DNA of 41,845 nucleotides from Candidatus Enterococcus ferrettii (GTDB lineage: Bacteria; Bacillota; Bacilli; Lactobacillales; Enterococcaceae): contig NZ_JAFREL010000040.1 of the NCBI RefSeq assembly GCF_017377655.1, forward strand, positions 1 to 41,845, in the 5' to 3' direction. Positions 21,364 through 41,803 of the stretch are shown here, piece by piece. The notes beneath the pieces are model-generated. The model was not told the DNA's origin. It did not search any database and saw only the letters and a list, made by a program, of their open reading frames with translations. Position numbers and translations under genes: made by a program. Each line of letters begins with the position of its first letter. Positions within the stretch are counted from its first letter, which is position 1.

Positions 21364-22023
21364 TTAGTACCAGCCGTTTGCTAACCAGAAAGACTGGGCG
21401 CCTTCCCATGAACCATAGCGTGAAGTTACATATTGATCAGCTACGCGTTCTTGGTTTTCTGCTGAGTAATCACCATTTAAGTAAGATGAGCTTAATTGGT
21501 AACGTCCAATGTATTGGCCATTTGATGCTGAGTAAGAACCGCCAGATTCTTTTTGGGCAATCCATTCTTTTGCTGAAGAAGTTGTTGCAGGTACTGTTTC
21601 AGTTACAGGAGCTGCTGCTTGTTCGACTGGTGCTGTTTCTTGAACTGGAGCTGCTGCTTGTTCCACAGGTGCTGCTTCCGCTTGAACTGGAGCCGCTGCT
21701 TGTTCAGCAGGTGCTGTTTCTTGTGCTGGAGCTTCTTTAACTGCTTCAGCAGCTGCAGGTGCAGGAGTTGCTTCTGCTTTGCCTTCTTTGTCGATTGTCA
21801 ATTCTTGACCAGCAAAAATCATGTTCACGTTTGAAATTTTGTTCGCTTTAGCAATTGCATCAACTAAGCTGTTGTCGCCAGCAAACTTGTGTGAAATTTT
21901 TGATAAAGTATCGCCAGATTCAACAGTATATTTTTCTGCTGCGTGCGCATCTTGCCCACCAAAAGCCATACCAGTTCCTGCTGCTAATAAAGATCCAAAT
22001 AAGAATGTTTTTCCTAATTTCAT
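21364..22023 (-). CDS. Secreted LysM protein with Apf-like (lysozyme-fold) C-terminal domain
   Basis: A cell-wall-associated protein of 219 residues. It has a signal peptide (1 to about 28, cleaved after DAHA), one LysM domain (about 30-75, YTVESGDTLSKISHKF) that binds peptidoglycan, a low-complexity Ala/Pro/Glu/Gln linker of near-repeats (APVEQAAAPVQ, ETAPVEQAAAPV), and a C-terminal domain like that of lactobacillar aggregation-promoting factors (WIAQKESGGSYSASNG ... WLANGWY), related to lytic transglycosylases. ATG 22023 is chosen since GGAGG lies upstream and the next ATG (22041) falls in that site. The 22024-22356 stretch before it holds only a candidate minus-strand -10 (TATACA near 22230), implying a leader of about 200 nt. 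Confidence 0.9.
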   Translation of the reverse strand: MKLGKTFLFGSLLAAGTGMAFGGQDAHAAEKYTVESGDTLSKISHKFAGDNSLVDAIAKANKISNVNMIFAGQELTIDKEGKAEATPAPAAAEAVKEAPAQETAPAEQAAAPVQAEAAPVEQAAAPVQETAPVEQAAAPVTETVPATTSSAKEWIAQKESGGSYSASNGQYIGRYQLSSSYLNGDYSAENQERVADQYVTSRYGSWEGAQSFWLANGWY

Positions 22024-22356
22024 TATGTTAAGTTCCTCCATATAGGTTTCTACGTCTTCTTGACTACGAGAGTAACTTTACCACCCTTTCGTATTTCATG
22101 GGTGAAAATCCTATGACATTTGGTTACAATCCTGTGTAAAAATGTAACAAAACGCAGTACCTGCACTTTTTTGAAATAGTTGTCTTCCTCTCTTATCGAC
22201 CAAAAACGGCTTATCTTCAAGGTTTCTTCACGCAAATGTATAATTATTTACTTATCCTCTTGAAACATTGCAATCTTTCTGTAAAAGTTTGAAACATTTC
22301 TTTTGCTTTTCAATACCTCGCATTTATTCAAAATAAGTTAAATTATTTTCAGTTTT

Positions 22357-22385
22357 TTGACTAATTCAACTTTATTTGATAAATT
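22357..22385 (+). promoter_or_regulatory. Promoter of the leader ORF and P-type ATPase
   Basis: TTGACT (22357-22362), a 17-bp spacer, then TAAATT (22380-22385). RNA would begin near 22392, only a few bases before the leader ORF ribosome binding site GGAGGTGA, so no room remains for an upstream riboswitch. Confidence 0.65.
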
Positions 22386-22409
22386 AACTATATCGGAGGT
22401 GATAAAAAA

Positions 22410-22472
22410 ATGGACCCAGACGCCCAGCAGACGTCTTACTATTACGAAGTTCCTTATTTTCAAAAAGAATAA
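22410..22472 (+). CDS. 20-residue putative leader peptide upstream of a P-type ATPase
   Basis: A small ORF (MDPDAQQTSYYY, then EVPYFQKE, stop TAA 22470-22472) with one of the strongest ribosome binding sites in the window, GGAGGTGAT, 7-10 nt before the ATG. It is followed 10 nt later by an intrinsic terminator and 78 nt later by the ATPase start. The N-terminal Asp-Pro-Asp recalls the MEPDP start of MgtL, the leader of enterobacterial mgtA, in which acidic and proline residues make ribosomes fall off at low magnesium. Three consecutive Tyr codons and another aromatic cluster follow and could serve as a stall region. Translation is very likely from the site; a regulatory role is inferred. Confidence 0.65.
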   Translation: MDPDAQQTSYYYEVPYFQKE

Positions 22473-22482
22473 GCTTATTTAC

Positions 22483-22512
22483 GTACGTTGTCATAAGACA
22501 AGGTGCTTTTTT
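22483..22512 (+). terminator. Intrinsic terminator (attenuator) between leader ORF and ATPase
   Basis: GTACGTTGTC (22483-22492) pairs with GACAAGGTGC (22497-22506) with one mismatch and one wobble, loop ATAA, then six T (22507-22512). It lies between the leader stop codon and the ATPase start. In addition CTTATTT (22474-22480) can pair with AAATAAG (22529-22535), covering part of the ATPase ribosome binding site. Confidence 0.65.
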
Positions 22513-22550
22513 CGCGTATTCTAATTTAAAATAAGGAGTGTTTTTTACAC

Positions 22551-25223
22551 ATGAAGGAAGATTATCACCAGAAACTGCAACAATTGCAGGAAAGCTATCC
22601 ACAAAAAGATTTTGAGCAAGGTCTGAGCCAACAGGAAGCACAAGCACGTTTAGCTCAATTTGGCCCTAACAAACTGGAAACCAAGAAAACCCCGAAATGG
22701 AAACTGTTTTTACGTCAATTTCATAACATGATCATTTATATTTTAATCGTCGCGATGCTCTTAACTTTACTGATGGGTCATTCTTCTGATGCCATCATTA
22801 TCGGTCTGGTAGTTATCATTAATGCTTTTATCGGTTACTACCAGGAAGCAAATGCTTCAGACGCCCTGGAAAAAATCAAACAAATGCTGGCCACCGAAGC
22901 TACAGTCTATCGCGATGGTACTCGGATGGATATCCCTACCGAAGATTTAGTTGCTGGCGACGTAGTCTTTTTGGAAGCCGGAGACAGTGTACCTGCCGAC
23001 CTGCGAATTGTCGATGCTGACAACCTGCGGATTCAAGAAGCCAGCTTAACTGGAGAAGCCGATTCTATCGAAAAGACTGCTGCTGATTTGCCACAGGAAG
23101 AAGTTCCTTTGGCTGAACAAATCAACAAGGCCTTTGCTTCTACTTCCATTACAAACGGAAGCGGCTTGGGAGTGGTTATCGCTACGGCAACCGATACTGA
23201 AATTGGGAAAATTTCTACTGAAGTCAGTCAAGTGAAACAGCGCAAGTCTCCATTAATGCAGCAAATCGATGGCTTGGGTAAAGGCGTGTCTTATGTAGTT
23301 ATTGGAGCAGCGGTTATGCTGTTTTTATTCGGACTATTCTTTGACACCTATTCCCTTTCTGTTCTTTCACTGGCAGTTGTTACCATGATTGTTGGCTCCA
23401 TTCCTGAAGGGCTGCCGGCAACCACCTCAGTCATATTAGCAATGGGTGTCAGCGACATGGCTAAAAACAAACACACGATTGTCAAAACGTTGCCTGCCGT
23501 TGAAACATTGGGTTCAGTGGATGTGATTGCTACTGATAAAACGGGGACTTTGACCAAAAATGAAATGACTGTCACCGATGTATTGATTGATGAACATCAC
23601 TATACAGTCAGTGGTTTCGGGTATAAACCAGAGGGAAAACTACTGGAAAATGGTCAAATCGTGGCTCCTGATGAAAAAGTGCAACGCTTTTTAGAAGCAG
23701 GTTATGAAGCGAACGATACTTTGCTCTTTGAGGAAGACAATCGCTGGCAAATCAATGGCGAACCAACAGATGGCTCTTTTTTAACCTTATATCAAAAGTT
23801 GAAAAAAAACCCACCAGCTGTTACCGAAATTGATATGCTGCCCTTTGACTCAGAATATCGCTACATGGCGAAGCTGGTGCAACAGCCAAACGGTCAGCGC
23901 TTAGTTTATATTAAAGGCTCTCCGGATAAGCTGTTTCCGATGGCTCAAACTCAAGAAGCAGCCTTTGATCATGATTTTTGGAGCGAACAGGTGCTGGCAC
24001 TTTCTGAAGAAGGCAAGCGGGTTGTTGCAGTAGGGTATAAATCGGTCTCGTCAACAACTGAAGAGGTTACTCACGAGCTTTTAGCTAAAGGGATTCACTT
24101 CTTAGGTTTAGCCGGCATCATTGATCCACCGCGAGAAGAAGTTATTGGTTCCTTGAAGGACATGCGTCAAGCCGGTGTCGAAGTCAAAATGATCACCGGC
24201 GATCACCCAGTAACTGCCAAAACCATTGGTGAACAGCTAGGCTTAGCTCCTGAAATTAAAGCAATTACTGGTCCAGAATGGGATCGTTTGTCGCAAGTTG
24301 AAAAAGAAGCGGCTGCAATTAGCCACCAAGTATTTGCTCGAACGACGCCGAAAAATAAATTAGAGATCATCGAAGCTCTCCAGGCCAATCACAAAGTTAC
24401 TGCTATGACTGGTGATGGAGTGAATGATGCACCAGCCTTGAAACGAGCCGATATTGGTGTTGCAATGGGGATTAAAGGAACCGACGTTGCTAAAGATTCC
24501 GCTGATATGATTTTGGCTAATGATAACTTTGCTACCATGTCAGTTGCCATTCGTGAAGGTCGCCGAATATACGATAATATCAAGAAGAGTATTCTCTTCC
24601 TGCTGCCGACTTCCTTTGCTGAAGGTCTAATCATTGCATTTACCATCTTGATGCAGATTGACATGCCTTTACAGGCGACTCAGCTGCTATGGATCAATAT
24701 GGTTTCGGCAATTACAATTCAGTTTGCGTTCATCTTTGAACCAGCTGAAGAAGGCATCATGGATCGACCACCTCAGAAAACCGGCAGCCGCCTTATGAGC
24801 CGTCATGATATTTTTCAGATGGCCTACGTTTCGATTCTGATGGCGTTAACCGCCCTGATGGCTTACGATTGGATTTTAGATCGCGGAATTGATCATACTA
24901 CTGCAAGTACTATGATGGTAAATATTATTGTTATCAGCAAAATTTTCTATCTATTTAATATTCGTACTTCTCAGTATGCCCTGTCAAAGGAATTCTTTAC
25001 CAATAAGAAGGCTTTCGTTATCATTGCAATTATGATCGGACTGCAGCTAATCTTGACCTATGTGCCTTTCATGCAGCAAGCCTTCCACACAGCTCCTATG
25101 AGTTTAGTTGAATGGGGTGTTTCAATTCTTGCTGGTATGTTGATTCTAATCATTACTGAATTTGACAAATGGCGCAATCGCCGAAACAGCAAGCCAATTC
25201 TGGTTACCCACAAATCTTCATAA
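22551..25223 (+). CDS. P-type (P2) cation-translocating ATPase, ion uncertain
   Basis: A membrane cation pump of 890 residues. Visible parts: N-terminal cation ATPase domain, actuator loop LTGEAD (TGE), the TM4 motif PEGLPA, the phosphorylated Asp329 in DKTGTLTKNEMT, nucleotide domain KGSPDK, TGDHPVTA, hinge TGDGVNDAPALKRADIG, and six C-terminal helices. Glu of TM4 is kept, but in TM6 the SERCA pattern NLVTD reads NMVSA here, so the calcium-ligand Asp is missing, and TM5 has S where SERCA has N. Calcium specificity should not be assumed; Mg, Na, Mn or another ion is possible. A site AAGGAG lies 12 nt before ATG 22551. A leader ORF and terminator precede it; a shared terminator follows. Confidence 0.92.
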   Translation: MKEDYHQKLQQLQESYPQKDFEQGLSQQEAQARLAQFGPNKLETKKTPKWKLFLRQFHNMIIYILIVAMLLTLLMGHSSDAIIIGLVVIINAFIGYYQEANASDALEKIKQMLATEATVYRDGTRMDIPTEDLVAGDVVFLEAGDSVPADLRIVDADNLRIQEASLTGEADSIEKTAADLPQEEVPLAEQINKAFASTSITNGSGLGVVIATATDTEIGKISTEVSQVKQRKSPLMQQIDGLGKGVSYVVIGAAVMLFLFGLFFDTYSLSVLSLAVVTMIVGSIPEGLPATTSVILAMGVSDMAKNKHTIVKTLPAVETLGSVDVIATDKTGTLTKNEMTVTDVLIDEHHYTVSGFGYKPEGKLLENGQIVAPDEKVQRFLEAGYEANDTLLFEEDNRWQINGEPTDGSFLTLYQKLKKNPPAVTEIDMLPFDSEYRYMAKLVQQPNGQRLVYIKGSPDKLFPMAQTQEAAFDHDFWSEQVLALSEEGKRVVAVGYKSVSSTTEEVTHELLAKGIHFLGLAGIIDPPREEVIGSLKDMRQAGVEVKMITGDHPVTAKTIGEQLGLAPEIKAITGPEWDRLSQVEKEAAAISHQVFARTTPKNKLEIIEALQANHKVTAMTGDGVNDAPALKRADIGVAMGIKGTDVAKDSADMILANDNFATMSVAIREGRRIYDNIKKSILFLLPTSFAEGLIIAFTILMQIDMPLQATQLLWINMVSAITIQFAFIFEPAEEGIMDRPPQKTGSRLMSRHDIFQMAYVSILMALTALMAYDWILDRGIDHTTASTMMVNIIVISKIFYLFNIRTSQYALSKEFFTNKKAFVIIAIMIGLQLILTYVPFMQQAFHTAPMSLVEWGVSILAGMLILIITEFDKWRNRRNSKPILVTHKSS

Positions 25224-35282: not shown

Positions 35283-35510
35283 AAAAAAGTCCTATAGAAG
35301 CCAATCTTCTATAGGACGTTGAAAACGTGGTACCACCTATGTTTATCTGGCTTACGCCAAACCTCAAAGAGATAACGGTCACTTCACCGGATCCTATTGA
35401 TCATGCTCAAAGGTAAGTTCAAAGGCCTTGCATGTACACTCACAGCAACCGCGTACTCTCTGAAATGCCAAAACTTCTACTACTCCTTGTCAACGCATCA
35501 GTATTCAAGT
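35283..35510 (-). ncRNA. T-box leader (leucine) of leuS
   Basis: Read on the minus strand, the T-box motif AGGTGGTACCACG (35338-35326) precedes a terminator: a 12-bp stem (35289-35300 with 35306-35317) followed by six T (35288-35283). Stem I features (GAGAGTA in the upper part) lie further 5'. The specifier is probably CTT in GAACTTACC (35417-35415), a leucine codon, agreeing with the downstream gene. Uncharged tRNA-Leu would stabilise the antiterminator. Confidence 0.93.
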
Positions 35511-40233: not shown

Positions 40234-41424
40234 TTATTTTATGTTTAAGCTTTTCTTTAACGCATCAACTTTATCTGTTTGCTCCCAAGGAAGCTCTATA
40301 TCTGTCCGGCCAAAATGCCCGTAAGCAGCTGTTTGACTATAGATCGGACGCTGCAAATCTAACATTTCAATAATGCCCGCAGGACGCAAATCAAAGTTCT
40401 CACGAATCGCTTCAATCAGTTTCTCTTCAGAAACTGAGGCTGTGTCAAAAGTATTAACTGAAATAGAAACAGGTTGCGCGACACCAATCGCATAAGCCAA
40501 TTGAACTTCTACTTTTTCAGCTAAACCAGCTGCAACTATATTTTTCGCGATGTAACGTGCTGCGTAAGAAGCTGAACGGTCAACCTTTGTTGCATCTTTA
40601 CCAGAAAATGCACCACCACCATGACGAGAATAACCGCCATACGTATCAACAATGATTTTCCGGCCAGTTAATCCAGCATCTCCTTGAGGCCCGCCGATTA
40701 CAAAGCGACCTGTTGGATTAATGAAGTAACGTGTTTTTTTATCCAGTAAACCGGCAGGAATGACATGATTGATTACTTTTTCCGTGACATCCTTTTGAAT
40801 GGTAGCATTATCAACCTCTTCAGTATGTTGAGTGCTAATAACGACTGTATCCACACGTAATGGTTTTCCTTCTTCATCGTACTCAACCGTTACTTGCGAT
40901 TTAGCATCTGGACCTAAATAAGCCACTTCTTCGGACTTACGCAAATCAGCCAATCGTTTCACCAAATGATGACTCAATGAAATAGGTAAAGGCATCAATT
41001 CAGGTGTTTCATCAACTGCAAAACCAAACATTAACCCTTGATCTCCAGCACCGATTTCATCTAAATTCTGATCTTTTCCACGTATCTCCAACGCTTCATC
41101 AACACCTTGAGCAATGTCTGGAGACTGCTCATCAATTGCTACCAAGACTGCTACCGTATCTCCGTCAAAACCATATTTAGATTGGGTATATCCAATTCGC
41201 TTGATTGTTTCACGAACAACCTTTTGAATATCAACATAGGCAGTAGTTGATATTTCACCAAATACTAAAACCAATCCAGTAGTAACAGATGTCTCGCAAG
41301 CTACACGAGCTTTTGGATCCTTTGCTAAAATTGCATCTAGAATTGCGTCACTGATTTGATCAGCAACCTTATCCGGATGTCCCTCTGAAACAGATTCAGA
41401 AGTAAATAAACGACGTTCTTTCAT
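40234..41424 (-). CDS. metK: S-adenosylmethionine synthetase
   Basis: Makes S-adenosylmethionine from methionine and ATP. 396 residues with the family landmarks: [13 protein letters not shown] at the start, [30 protein letters not shown] and GGGAFSGKD. The start is ATG 41424, chosen because GGGGG at 41432-41436 is the ribosome binding site and forms part of the SMK riboswitch; the frame is open to 41463, but that would run through the riboswitch. Expression is turned off when SAM binds the leader. Confidence 0.98.
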
Positions 41425-41430
41425 TTTTCT

Positions 41431-41493
41431 ATTCCCCCTAATTATTATTCGGTTACAAGGCACCTCTATCAGTTACTAGAGCCTATCGGGAAC
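41431..41493 (-). promoter_or_regulatory. SMK box (SAM-III) riboswitch of metK
   Basis: On the minus strand GTTCCCGATAGG starts at 41493, followed by an internal hairpin, the conserved TGCCTTGTAACCGA, and then AGGGGGAAT (41439-41431), which is the ribosome binding site. GTTCCC can pair with GGGGGAA, hiding the site when SAM is bound. Sequence and position match the known SMK box of enterococcal and streptococcal metK. An extended -10 promoter, TGTTATAAT, lies at 41515-41507. Confidence 0.93.
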
Positions 41494-41506
41494 TTGCAAC
41501 GACCTG

Positions 41507-41632: not shown

Positions 41633-41704
41633 TGACCCGTACGGGAATCGAACCCGTGTTACCGCCGTGAAAGGGCGGTGTCTTAACCGCTTGACCAACG
41701 GGCC
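41633..41704 (-). tRNA. tRNA-Glu (anticodon TTC)
   Basis: 72 nt cloverleaf on the minus strand: acceptor GGCCCGT/ACGGGTC, anticodon stem CCGCC/GGCGG with loop CTTTCAC (anticodon TTC), T-arm ACGGGTTCGATTCCCGT, discriminator A. CCA is not encoded. Confidence 0.95.
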
Positions 41705-41715
41705 ACTATAAAGAA

Positions 41716-41803
41716 CGGAGAAGGAGGGATTTGAACCCTCGCGCCGGTTTCCCGACCTACACCCTTAGCAGGGGCGCCTCTTCAGCCACTTGAGTACTTC
41801 CCC
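41716..41803 (-). tRNA. tRNA-Ser (anticodon GCT)
   Basis: 88 nt with a long variable arm, as expected for serine. Acceptor GGGGAAG/CTTCTCC, anticodon loop CTGCTAA (GCT), T-loop GGTTCAAATCC, discriminator G. CCA is not encoded. It lies 11 bp upstream of tRNA-Glu in one transcript. Confidence 0.95.

Follow-up and report, generated by a model that had tools for sequence, protein, structure and literature searches.

A conserved acidic leader peptide as a candidate translation-coupled switch for a cation-transporting P-type ATPase of Enterococcus

The locus analyzed here raises the question of how a gene for a cation pump might be controlled through the translation of a short peptide encoded in its own leader. 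The gene, which codes for a P-type ATPase, lies in a 41,845-nucleotide stretch of the genome of Candidatus Enterococcus ferrettii (contig NZ_JAFREL010000040.1; genome size 5.4 Mb), hereinafter the window, and is preceded by a short upstream open reading frame (uORF) and a terminator-like hairpin. The original prediction, made from the sequence alone, placed in this leader a promoter, the uORF with a strong Shine-Dalgarno (SD) sequence and the hairpin, all of which, including the coordinates, are correct as read from the sequence (Table 1), and interpreted the ensemble as an MgtL-like, translation-sensed attenuator. Translational sensing remains the best reading, with a polarity that is probably the reverse of that of MgtL, such that full translation corresponds to the ON state. 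Specifically, with a probability of about 0.52, we propose that a cation exporter is switched ON through translation of the leader, high Mg2+ being the inducing condition.

To assess the conservation of the leader, homologs of the ATPase were sought in 105 genomes of the family, taken as Enterococcaceae (presence threshold E 1e-250), and in even draws of 395 genomes of the order and 398 of the class; these sets overlap, and the thresholds differ between them. The ATPase is present in 24 of the 105 family genomes, and an intact uORF is found upstream in 23 of the 24. At the remaining locus (L038; genome G051), both components are broken: the uORF contains a stop at the position of the Tyr codon and an altered SD, and the ATPase gene has an in-frame stop and yields a shortened match. 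Such joint decay is what would be expected if the leader serves the pump only. Altogether, 47 ATPase loci with at least 55% identity include 31 distinct leaders with an intact uORF, which form our main set, three duplicates (L016, L018 and L022, equivalent to L012, L027 and L009), L038, which was excluded from the set, and 12 loci without the uORF (L019-L021 from Companilactobacillus and the order members L043, L045-L047, L049-L052 and L054). The main set consists of 23 leaders from the family and eight from outside it, namely seven order members (L039-L042, L044, L048 and L053) and Paenibacillus antibioticophila (L017), in which the ATPase is 72% identical and the uORF peptide is MSSDRSDRCSFYDVSYFQME. 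In the list for the order, 43 rows had no locus; among the 40 upstream regions that were read by eye (G109 and G416 being omitted and G051 corresponding to L038), for ATPases 46-63% identical, the uORF was seen in none, with L057 as a possible exception.

The uORFs are 17-23 codons long, keep the frame throughout the 31 leaders and start with ATG, GTG or TTG (20, 6 and 5 cases, respectively). Codons 2-9 contain two to six Asp or Glu residues (mean 3.5) in all 31 leaders, and Lys and Arg are absent from this segment in 26. The MDPD start that had prompted the comparison with MgtL is thus conserved in its acidity, but the exact motif, along with Pro at position 3, is found in only nine of the 31 leaders; elsewhere, it is replaced by SSDSSDGE, TSDSEDGE, EELDDDE or DDDEGD, which indicates that acidity, rather than a single motif, is kept. 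The C-terminus is conserved as well, with Glu at position -1 in 28, Tyr at -5 in 25 and Phe at -4 in 25 of the 31 peptides, and the full YFxxE-stop in 23. These residues are encoded by both synonymous codons (TAT/TAC, TTT/TTC and GAA/GAG), suggesting selection on the peptide itself. The alignment of orthologous leaders that had been suggested as a check yields synonymous drift under a kept peptide and covariation in the hairpin, with the Asp-Pro-Asp residues giving way elsewhere to other acidic stretches. At the level of sequence comparison, the conservation of the frame, the acidic start and the C-terminus is decisive evidence that the uORF is real. The acidic codons of the leaders, at 22413-22436 in the window, are unusually GC-rich, with GAC in 42 of 59 cases and GAG in 17 of 26, the figures for the ATPases being 372 of 1245 and 337 of 1424, respectively; a hairpin within these codons was considered as the cause and rejected, the mean z-score in 25 leaders being -0.17 relative to synonymous recodings and +0.15 relative to shuffles.

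The SD region of the ATPase gene is complementary to the final codons of the uORF, and several lines of computational evidence support an SD-sequestering helix, denoted P1, that these codons would form. The swap, fold, recoding and ribosome-block tests were run on 25 leaders, with L009, L012, L027, L031, L036 and L041 excluded as close relatives; the pump start of L015, which has no in-frame start beside its nine-A run, was set by a fallback rule. When pairing between the last 24 nt of the uORF and the 35 nt preceding the ATPase start was compared with pairing after partners had been swapped between species, a test that ignores the relatedness of the leaders and gives no signal for pairings built of invariant bases, the own partners paired at -12.2 kcal/mol and the swapped ones at -8.8 kcal/mol (z -6.9). 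For the last 33 nt, none of 20000 permutations was as good (the pump start of L028 was misplaced in that run). Segments ending 18-36 nt before the end of the uORF gave z-scores of -0.1 to +0.5, so that a base composition common to both partners is unlikely to explain the signal. In Paenibacillus, P1 is built of different bases, CGTATTTTC pairing with GAAAATACG. Synonymous recoding of the uORF raised the predicted exposure of the SD from 0.27 to 0.43 (Wilcoxon p 2.5e-4), and a modelled 30-nt block at the uORF stop raised it to 0.59, compared to 0.27 with the block at codon 5; 19 of the 25 leaders gain more than 0.05 with the modelled ribosome at the stop. The Wilcoxon tests for the stop block and for recoding have the identical statistic (35) and p value, from different data. 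Sequestration of the SD had been anticipated, with a copy after the uORF stop (22474-22480) as the partner; that copy is present in four of the 31 leaders, and the main partner is the segment inside the reading frame.

The terminator-like hairpin of the window has a predicted free energy of -10.6 kcal/mol and begins 10 nt past the uORF stop; a generic terminator scan did not list it, and its stem contains a mismatch. By a loose script test, the hairpin is terminator-like in 21 of the 25 leaders, where it starts 0-13 nt past the uORF stop, and is missing in L015, L039, L048 and L053. Because these four leaders keep the uORF and the P1 pairing, the latter two elements seem to be the core of the system. 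In 18 aligned leaders, 95% of the alignment cells of the stem are paired, and there are 17 double changes, compared to 6.3 in shuffles and 0-8 in slid alignments. The stem shows a G.G mismatch and near-invariant GYRCGUY/RAGGKGC segments, a degree of conservation beyond the need of a plain terminator. An antiterminator formed between the uORF and the terminator was rejected as a candidate, with swap z-scores of +0.2 to +1.7 for seven uORF segments paired with positions +3 to +33 after the stop and of -0.8 to +1.8 for pairing with positions +22 to +55.

A covariance model of the SD-uORF-hairpin unit (R1), built on 18 of the 31 leaders, was used to search for leaders of this kind elsewhere; matches with E above roughly 1e-4 did not count by themselves, and L126 and L127 were left out. 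Among 103 family genomes, R1 yielded 23 matches at E <1e-6, 14 of these at model-building loci; 22 are located upstream of the ATPase (interrupted at L115), and one (L118) precedes a gene for a CNNM/CorC_HlyC/CBS protein, of a Mg2+-export type, in a genome without an ATPase match. R1 matched 28 genomes in all, with the uORF-carrying genomes G061, where the leader is divergent (E 6.5e-4), and G091, possibly outside the 103-genome draw, not among them. The uORF of L118 is MSDLGDEDSLQIHVRRTFYQKE, and its end, GAACATTC, complements the SD region of the CNNM gene, GGATGTTC; this pairing is seen in a partial fold, whereas the fold of the full leader pairs the uORF end with the SD region of the uORF itself. 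Among the CNNM genes of the genus, four orthologs (L129-L132; 71% identical), one of them from a genome (G015) that also has the ATPase leader, have longer uORFs upstream. These uORFs, of 44-46 codons, with a TTG start and the beginning MDDEDSL, pass through a similar hairpin (VRCxxTGCFF), and their stops lie 8-13 nt within the CNNM gene, the TTG start of which is itself a prediction. Translation of these uORFs must melt the hairpin. Their R1 matches (E 3e-4 to 0.02) are comparable to chance-level matches elsewhere in the same search and were counted because the sites had been found independently. When the search for CNNM genes was extended to 198 genomes of the order, L146 was the one match at E 1e-110, and no further leader came up. 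Some of the leaderless CNNM genes (L133-L136 and L146) start with acidic codons themselves (MDPQ, MDSDS; by eye).

On plasmids, the ATPase was detected at 68% identity in six E. faecalis plasmids; the two examined (L147 and L148; one conjugative and one mobilizable) both carry the ATPase with the leader, the peptides being MTSDSIEGEQRTLVCLSYFLIE and ...RILVCLSYFLIE (R1 E 1e-14), and these plasmid leaders were not part of the model building. Of five weak R1 matches in the family (E 4e-4 to 7e-3), L120 is the leader of G017 (L015), and L119 and L121-L123 lie in seemingly unrelated contexts; the class match L145 (E 3.8e-4) sits after an unrelated gene. The window's own genome has five further P-type ATPase loci (L002-L006) at which our scan detected no SD-preceded short reading frame, and neither these nor L008 had an R1 match up to E 1.

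Several ATPase genes outside the main set have other kinds of beginnings. In genus g76 (L077, L078, L080, L081 and L083; ATPase 52-53% identical), there is a different short conserved leader, LHDRxIALPIPDR-stop, with a TTG start and a good SD, exemplified by LHYRNIALPIPDR in L083 and LYHGYETFRIPDR in L081. Loci L019-L021 (Companilactobacillus), L043, L045-L047 and L049 have a conserved SD, GGAGTG, and a U-tract hairpin in the same place; the frame is non-acidic and lacks a standard start codon shared by all of these loci, CTG being a possible start as judged by eye. Some of the distant uORF-less ATPases (L060, L067 and L069-L071) have acidic starts of their own (MDDPAEQ, MDDPGEH, MEEVPD; by eye).

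The ATPase of the window is 94% identical to that of Enterococcus pallens and scores below all NCBIfam equivalog cut-offs, the best being TIGR01522 (565 bits, cut-off 798.3). The gene context implied by the MgtL analogy does not hold: with 316 bits against a cut-off of 610.75 for the importer profile TIGR01524, the protein is not an MgtA-type (P3B) pump by score. Of its relatives with solved structures, LMCA1 of Listeria and human-type SPCA1 (type 2C member 1) are closest. The ATPase is presumed to be an exporter, with Mg2+ as a candidate substrate.

These observations can be combined into a tentative mechanism. The mRNA would begin just upstream of the strongly initiating uORF; a ribosome finishing the uORF would cover its last codons, so that P1 opens and the ATPase SD becomes free, and, while at the stop codon, would also hinder formation of the nearby hairpin. 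With both structures open, the pump gene would be transcribed onward and translated. Early drop-off at the acidic codons 2-9, at low Mg2+ or on otherwise weakened ribosomes, would allow the putative terminator and P1 to form, resulting in the OFF state. High Mg2+ would then induce the exporter, the reverse of the response of MgtL. In L129-L132, a ribosome completing the uORF must melt the hairpin and ends up at the start of the CNNM gene, and in the ATPase form a ribosome at the stop would cover the P1 strand; complete translation most likely means ON, and the variable step would be whether ribosomes pass the acidic codons. The CNNM link favors Mg2+ as a possible signal. The CNNM protein MpfA of Staphylococcus aureus is required for growth in high Mg2+ (PMC6711546). 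Proteins related to CNNM confer protection against high Mg2+; for an exporter, being ON under ample Mg2+ would be the consistent logic. A broader proposition, which we put forward as somewhat short of an even bet, is that low-GC Gram-positive bacteria use such acidic leaders as an intracellular Mg2+ gauge with the sign opposite to that of MgtL, ribosomes crossing the acidic codons turning on Mg2+ exporters, a P-type ATPase and a CNNM protein, by melting the terminator and the SD helix made of the leader's own last codons.

Several results weigh against this mechanism. Six of the 25 leaders (L010, L013, L017, L024, L032 and L042) show no gain in SD exposure above 0.05, and in L017 the exposure drops; in L017, L030, L033, L037 and L040, the native uORF hides the SD no better than recoded versions (fraction at or below native, 0.42-0.88). 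In the hairpin, further pair types match the shuffles (10 versus 10.0), and double-changed pairs are more numerous in one slid control than in the true alignment (5 versus 4). The short P1 form is kept in one of the five CNNM cases only, and 11 other CNNM genes of the family (L133-L143) have no such leader, the L144 match covering the second half of a gene only. The C-terminus of the peptide is conserved through synonymous changes, which hints that the peptide itself has a further function, one not required for drop-off. Finally, transmembrane segment 6 of the ATPase, WINMVSAITIQ, compared to FINLVNDSLPA in LMCA1, lacks the Asp of the Listeria Ca2+ pump. This Asp (LMCA1 NLVND, window NMVSA) presumably occupies the position of SERCA D800, so a Ca2+ role for the ATPase is not to be assumed.

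The C-terminal conservation is the natural starting point for a different, and in our view unlikely, explanation, namely, that the uORF encodes an arrest peptide whose YFxxE terminus, responding to a ligand or cation, makes the ribosome stall on the stop codon, opening P1 and the terminator, with the acidic start only contacting the exit tunnel. Such logic resembles that of TnaC, SpeFL and Erm, and the ribosome modelled at the stop, which opens the SD in 19 of the 25 leaders, would fit it. However, the four long CNNM uORFs keep the acidic start and the hairpin without the C-terminal motif, the full motif is absent in eight of the 31 leaders, and P1 accounts for part of the constraint on the 3' end; we recognized no known arrest motif in the uORF, no search for one having been made. 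If, instead, the acidic start is the sensor, it could report general ribosome fitness (the L31/zinc state, ABCF or EF-P capacity, or the stringent state) rather than Mg2+, the pump being induced whenever early acidic elongation is efficient. EttA works on early acidic stretches (PMC11282234), and Bacillus subtilis YfmR relieves Asp-Pro stalls whereas YkpA helps with charged motifs (PMC11381351); the peptide of the window does contain Asp-Pro-Asp. That the leaders precede genes of divalent-cation-transport types, 22 ATPases and one CNNM gene among the 23 R1 matches (14 of these 23 being model-building loci), speaks against this explanation, which seems quite improbable.

A further rival concerns the polarity of the switch. 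In an MgtL-like arrangement, full translation would let the terminator form, and early drop-off would free antiterminator bases within the uORF. The acidic, proline-containing start and the GTCTTA:TAAGAC pairing originally proposed as the antiterminator are indeed present in the window, but the pairing occurs in only two of the 31 leaders, those of the window and of the E. pallens-type locus L009, and the swap test gives no signal between the uORF and the terminator (although invariant bases would escape it). Moreover, P1 would hide the SD after early drop-off, and in L129-L132 no terminator would survive ribosomes translating through the hairpin, so that repression by translation appears very improbable. 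Least credible of all is a metal-binding riboswitch or a plain structured 5' untranslated region in which the reading frame is incidental: the conserved hairpin with its G.G mismatch and near-invariant bases could be taken that way, but no Rfam covariance model matched the leader at its gathering score, the frame and the peptide are conserved while ATG, GTG and TTG interchange, and the hairpin is lost in four of 25 leaders while the uORF stays. Mg2+-dependent passage of ribosomes over the acidic codons remains the reading that we prefer.

Table 1. Features of the leader region and its flanks in the window
Feature	Positions	Strand	Basis
Promoter-like sigma-70 site, TTGACT-17-TAAATT, TG before -10	22357..22385	+	Consensus match only, 9/12
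uORF SD, GGAGGTG	22395..22401	+	Read directly; G-rich SD before the uORF in 31/31 leaders
uORF, 20 codons, MDPDAQQTSYYYEVPYFQKE-stop; ATG 22410, TAA 22470-22472	22410..22472	+	Read directly; frame kept in 31 leaders
Acidic N-terminal codons, proposed ribosome-destabilizing stretch	22410..22436	+	Conservation
P1 5' arm, uORF codons with complementarity to the SD region of the ATPase	22451..22460	+	Fold, swap tests, synonymous recoding
Terminator-like hairpin, stem 22483-22506 with G.G mismatch, T6 22507-22512	22483..22512	+	Sequence, fold, covariation
P1 3' arm, covers most of the ATPase SD AAGGAG (22533-22538)	22528..22537	+	Fold, swap tests
P2A-like cation ATPase of 890 residues, presumably the gene under control; ATG 22551	22551..25223	+	Profiles, alignment
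Divergent aggregation-promoting-factor/LysM gene, other flank of the leader region	21364..22041	-	Profile search

The leader of the window (22385-22551) is more stably folded than 199 of 200 shuffles (z -3.1), and, of the 16 SD-preceded reading frames of 15-30 codons that the two strands of the window contain, two have a net-acidic start. Promoter-like sites of the quality listed in Table 1 occur four times on both strands of a 661-base stretch, compared to 1.4 times in shuffles; the promoter match is weak evidence when taken alone. The single sub-threshold Rfam match in the leader (E 2.8) is unrelated, and neither the Mn2+ (yybP-ykoY) nor another Rfam cation riboswitch was matched there; elsewhere in the genome, there is one sub-threshold yybP-ykoY-like match (L095; 24.3 bits, cut-off 45). 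The window also contains, all on the minus strand, a T-box leader (35309-35502), an SAM-III (SMK box) riboswitch (41422-41504) and two tRNA genes (41633-41803).

If the proposed mechanism is correct, ribosome-destabilizing leaders extend from the Mg2+ transport genes of enterobacteria to export in Gram-positive bacteria, a single principle of sensing could apparently be put to use with opposite signs, and there is a pointer to the substrate of a P-type ATPase family that falls below all NCBIfam equivalog cut-offs and is also found on E. faecalis plasmids. The principle itself is known from enterobacteria; the leader described here would be a variant of it, with no acidic leader of this type in Gram-positive bacteria among the matches listed in a search of the open-access literature. 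In the architecture of the switch, there is a parallel with the erm and cat translational attenuators, in which a leader reading frame overlaps the SD-hiding hairpin, a ribosome on the leader frees the SD, and antibiotics are sensed by stalling; the system described here differs in its acidic peptide and in the cation-transport genes that it precedes.

With respect to the sensor, the MgtL leader of mgtA in Salmonella and E. coli, where acidic residues near the start make ribosomes drop off when Mg2+ is low (PMC11282234), shares with the present one a short uORF with an acidic, proline-containing start ahead of a cation P-type ATPase and drop-off as the sensing step, presumed in our case. In MgtL, however, the gene encodes an importer, the terminator is Rho-dependent and full translation means OFF, whereas here a putative intrinsic-type terminator is combined with predicted SD sequestration, the pump is P2A-like and the predicted sign is opposite. 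Among enterobacterial genes, mgpA (yoaE) and corC rise at high Mg2+; the YoaL leader reading frame and mgpA overlap, and less MgpA is translated when the start of YoaL is lost; and the authors suggest a ribosome-destabilizing start for CorC and, without proof, a link to high Mg2+ (PMC12421838). These are Gram-negative systems, and the excerpted text of that article describes neither a uORF:SD helix nor a terminator; the acidic starts of some leaderless CNNM genes recall the destabilizing start reported for CorC. In the MgtQ uORF preceding Salmonella mgtB, an acidic uORF likewise acts on the SD-hiding stem of an Mg2+ transporter gene, and its translation promotes the downstream gene (PMC8092293), as predicted here. 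MgtQ differs in having eight codons and a location inside an operon, and acidic destabilization raises the importer; it works through an alternative-stem switch (1:2, 2:3, 3:4) (PMC8092293), for which the swap test gave no uORF-terminator counterpart here, invariant bases escaping that test. In the leaders described here, the 3' end of the uORF would itself be the anti-SD, with direct pairing between the uORF and the SD of the gene that it controls.

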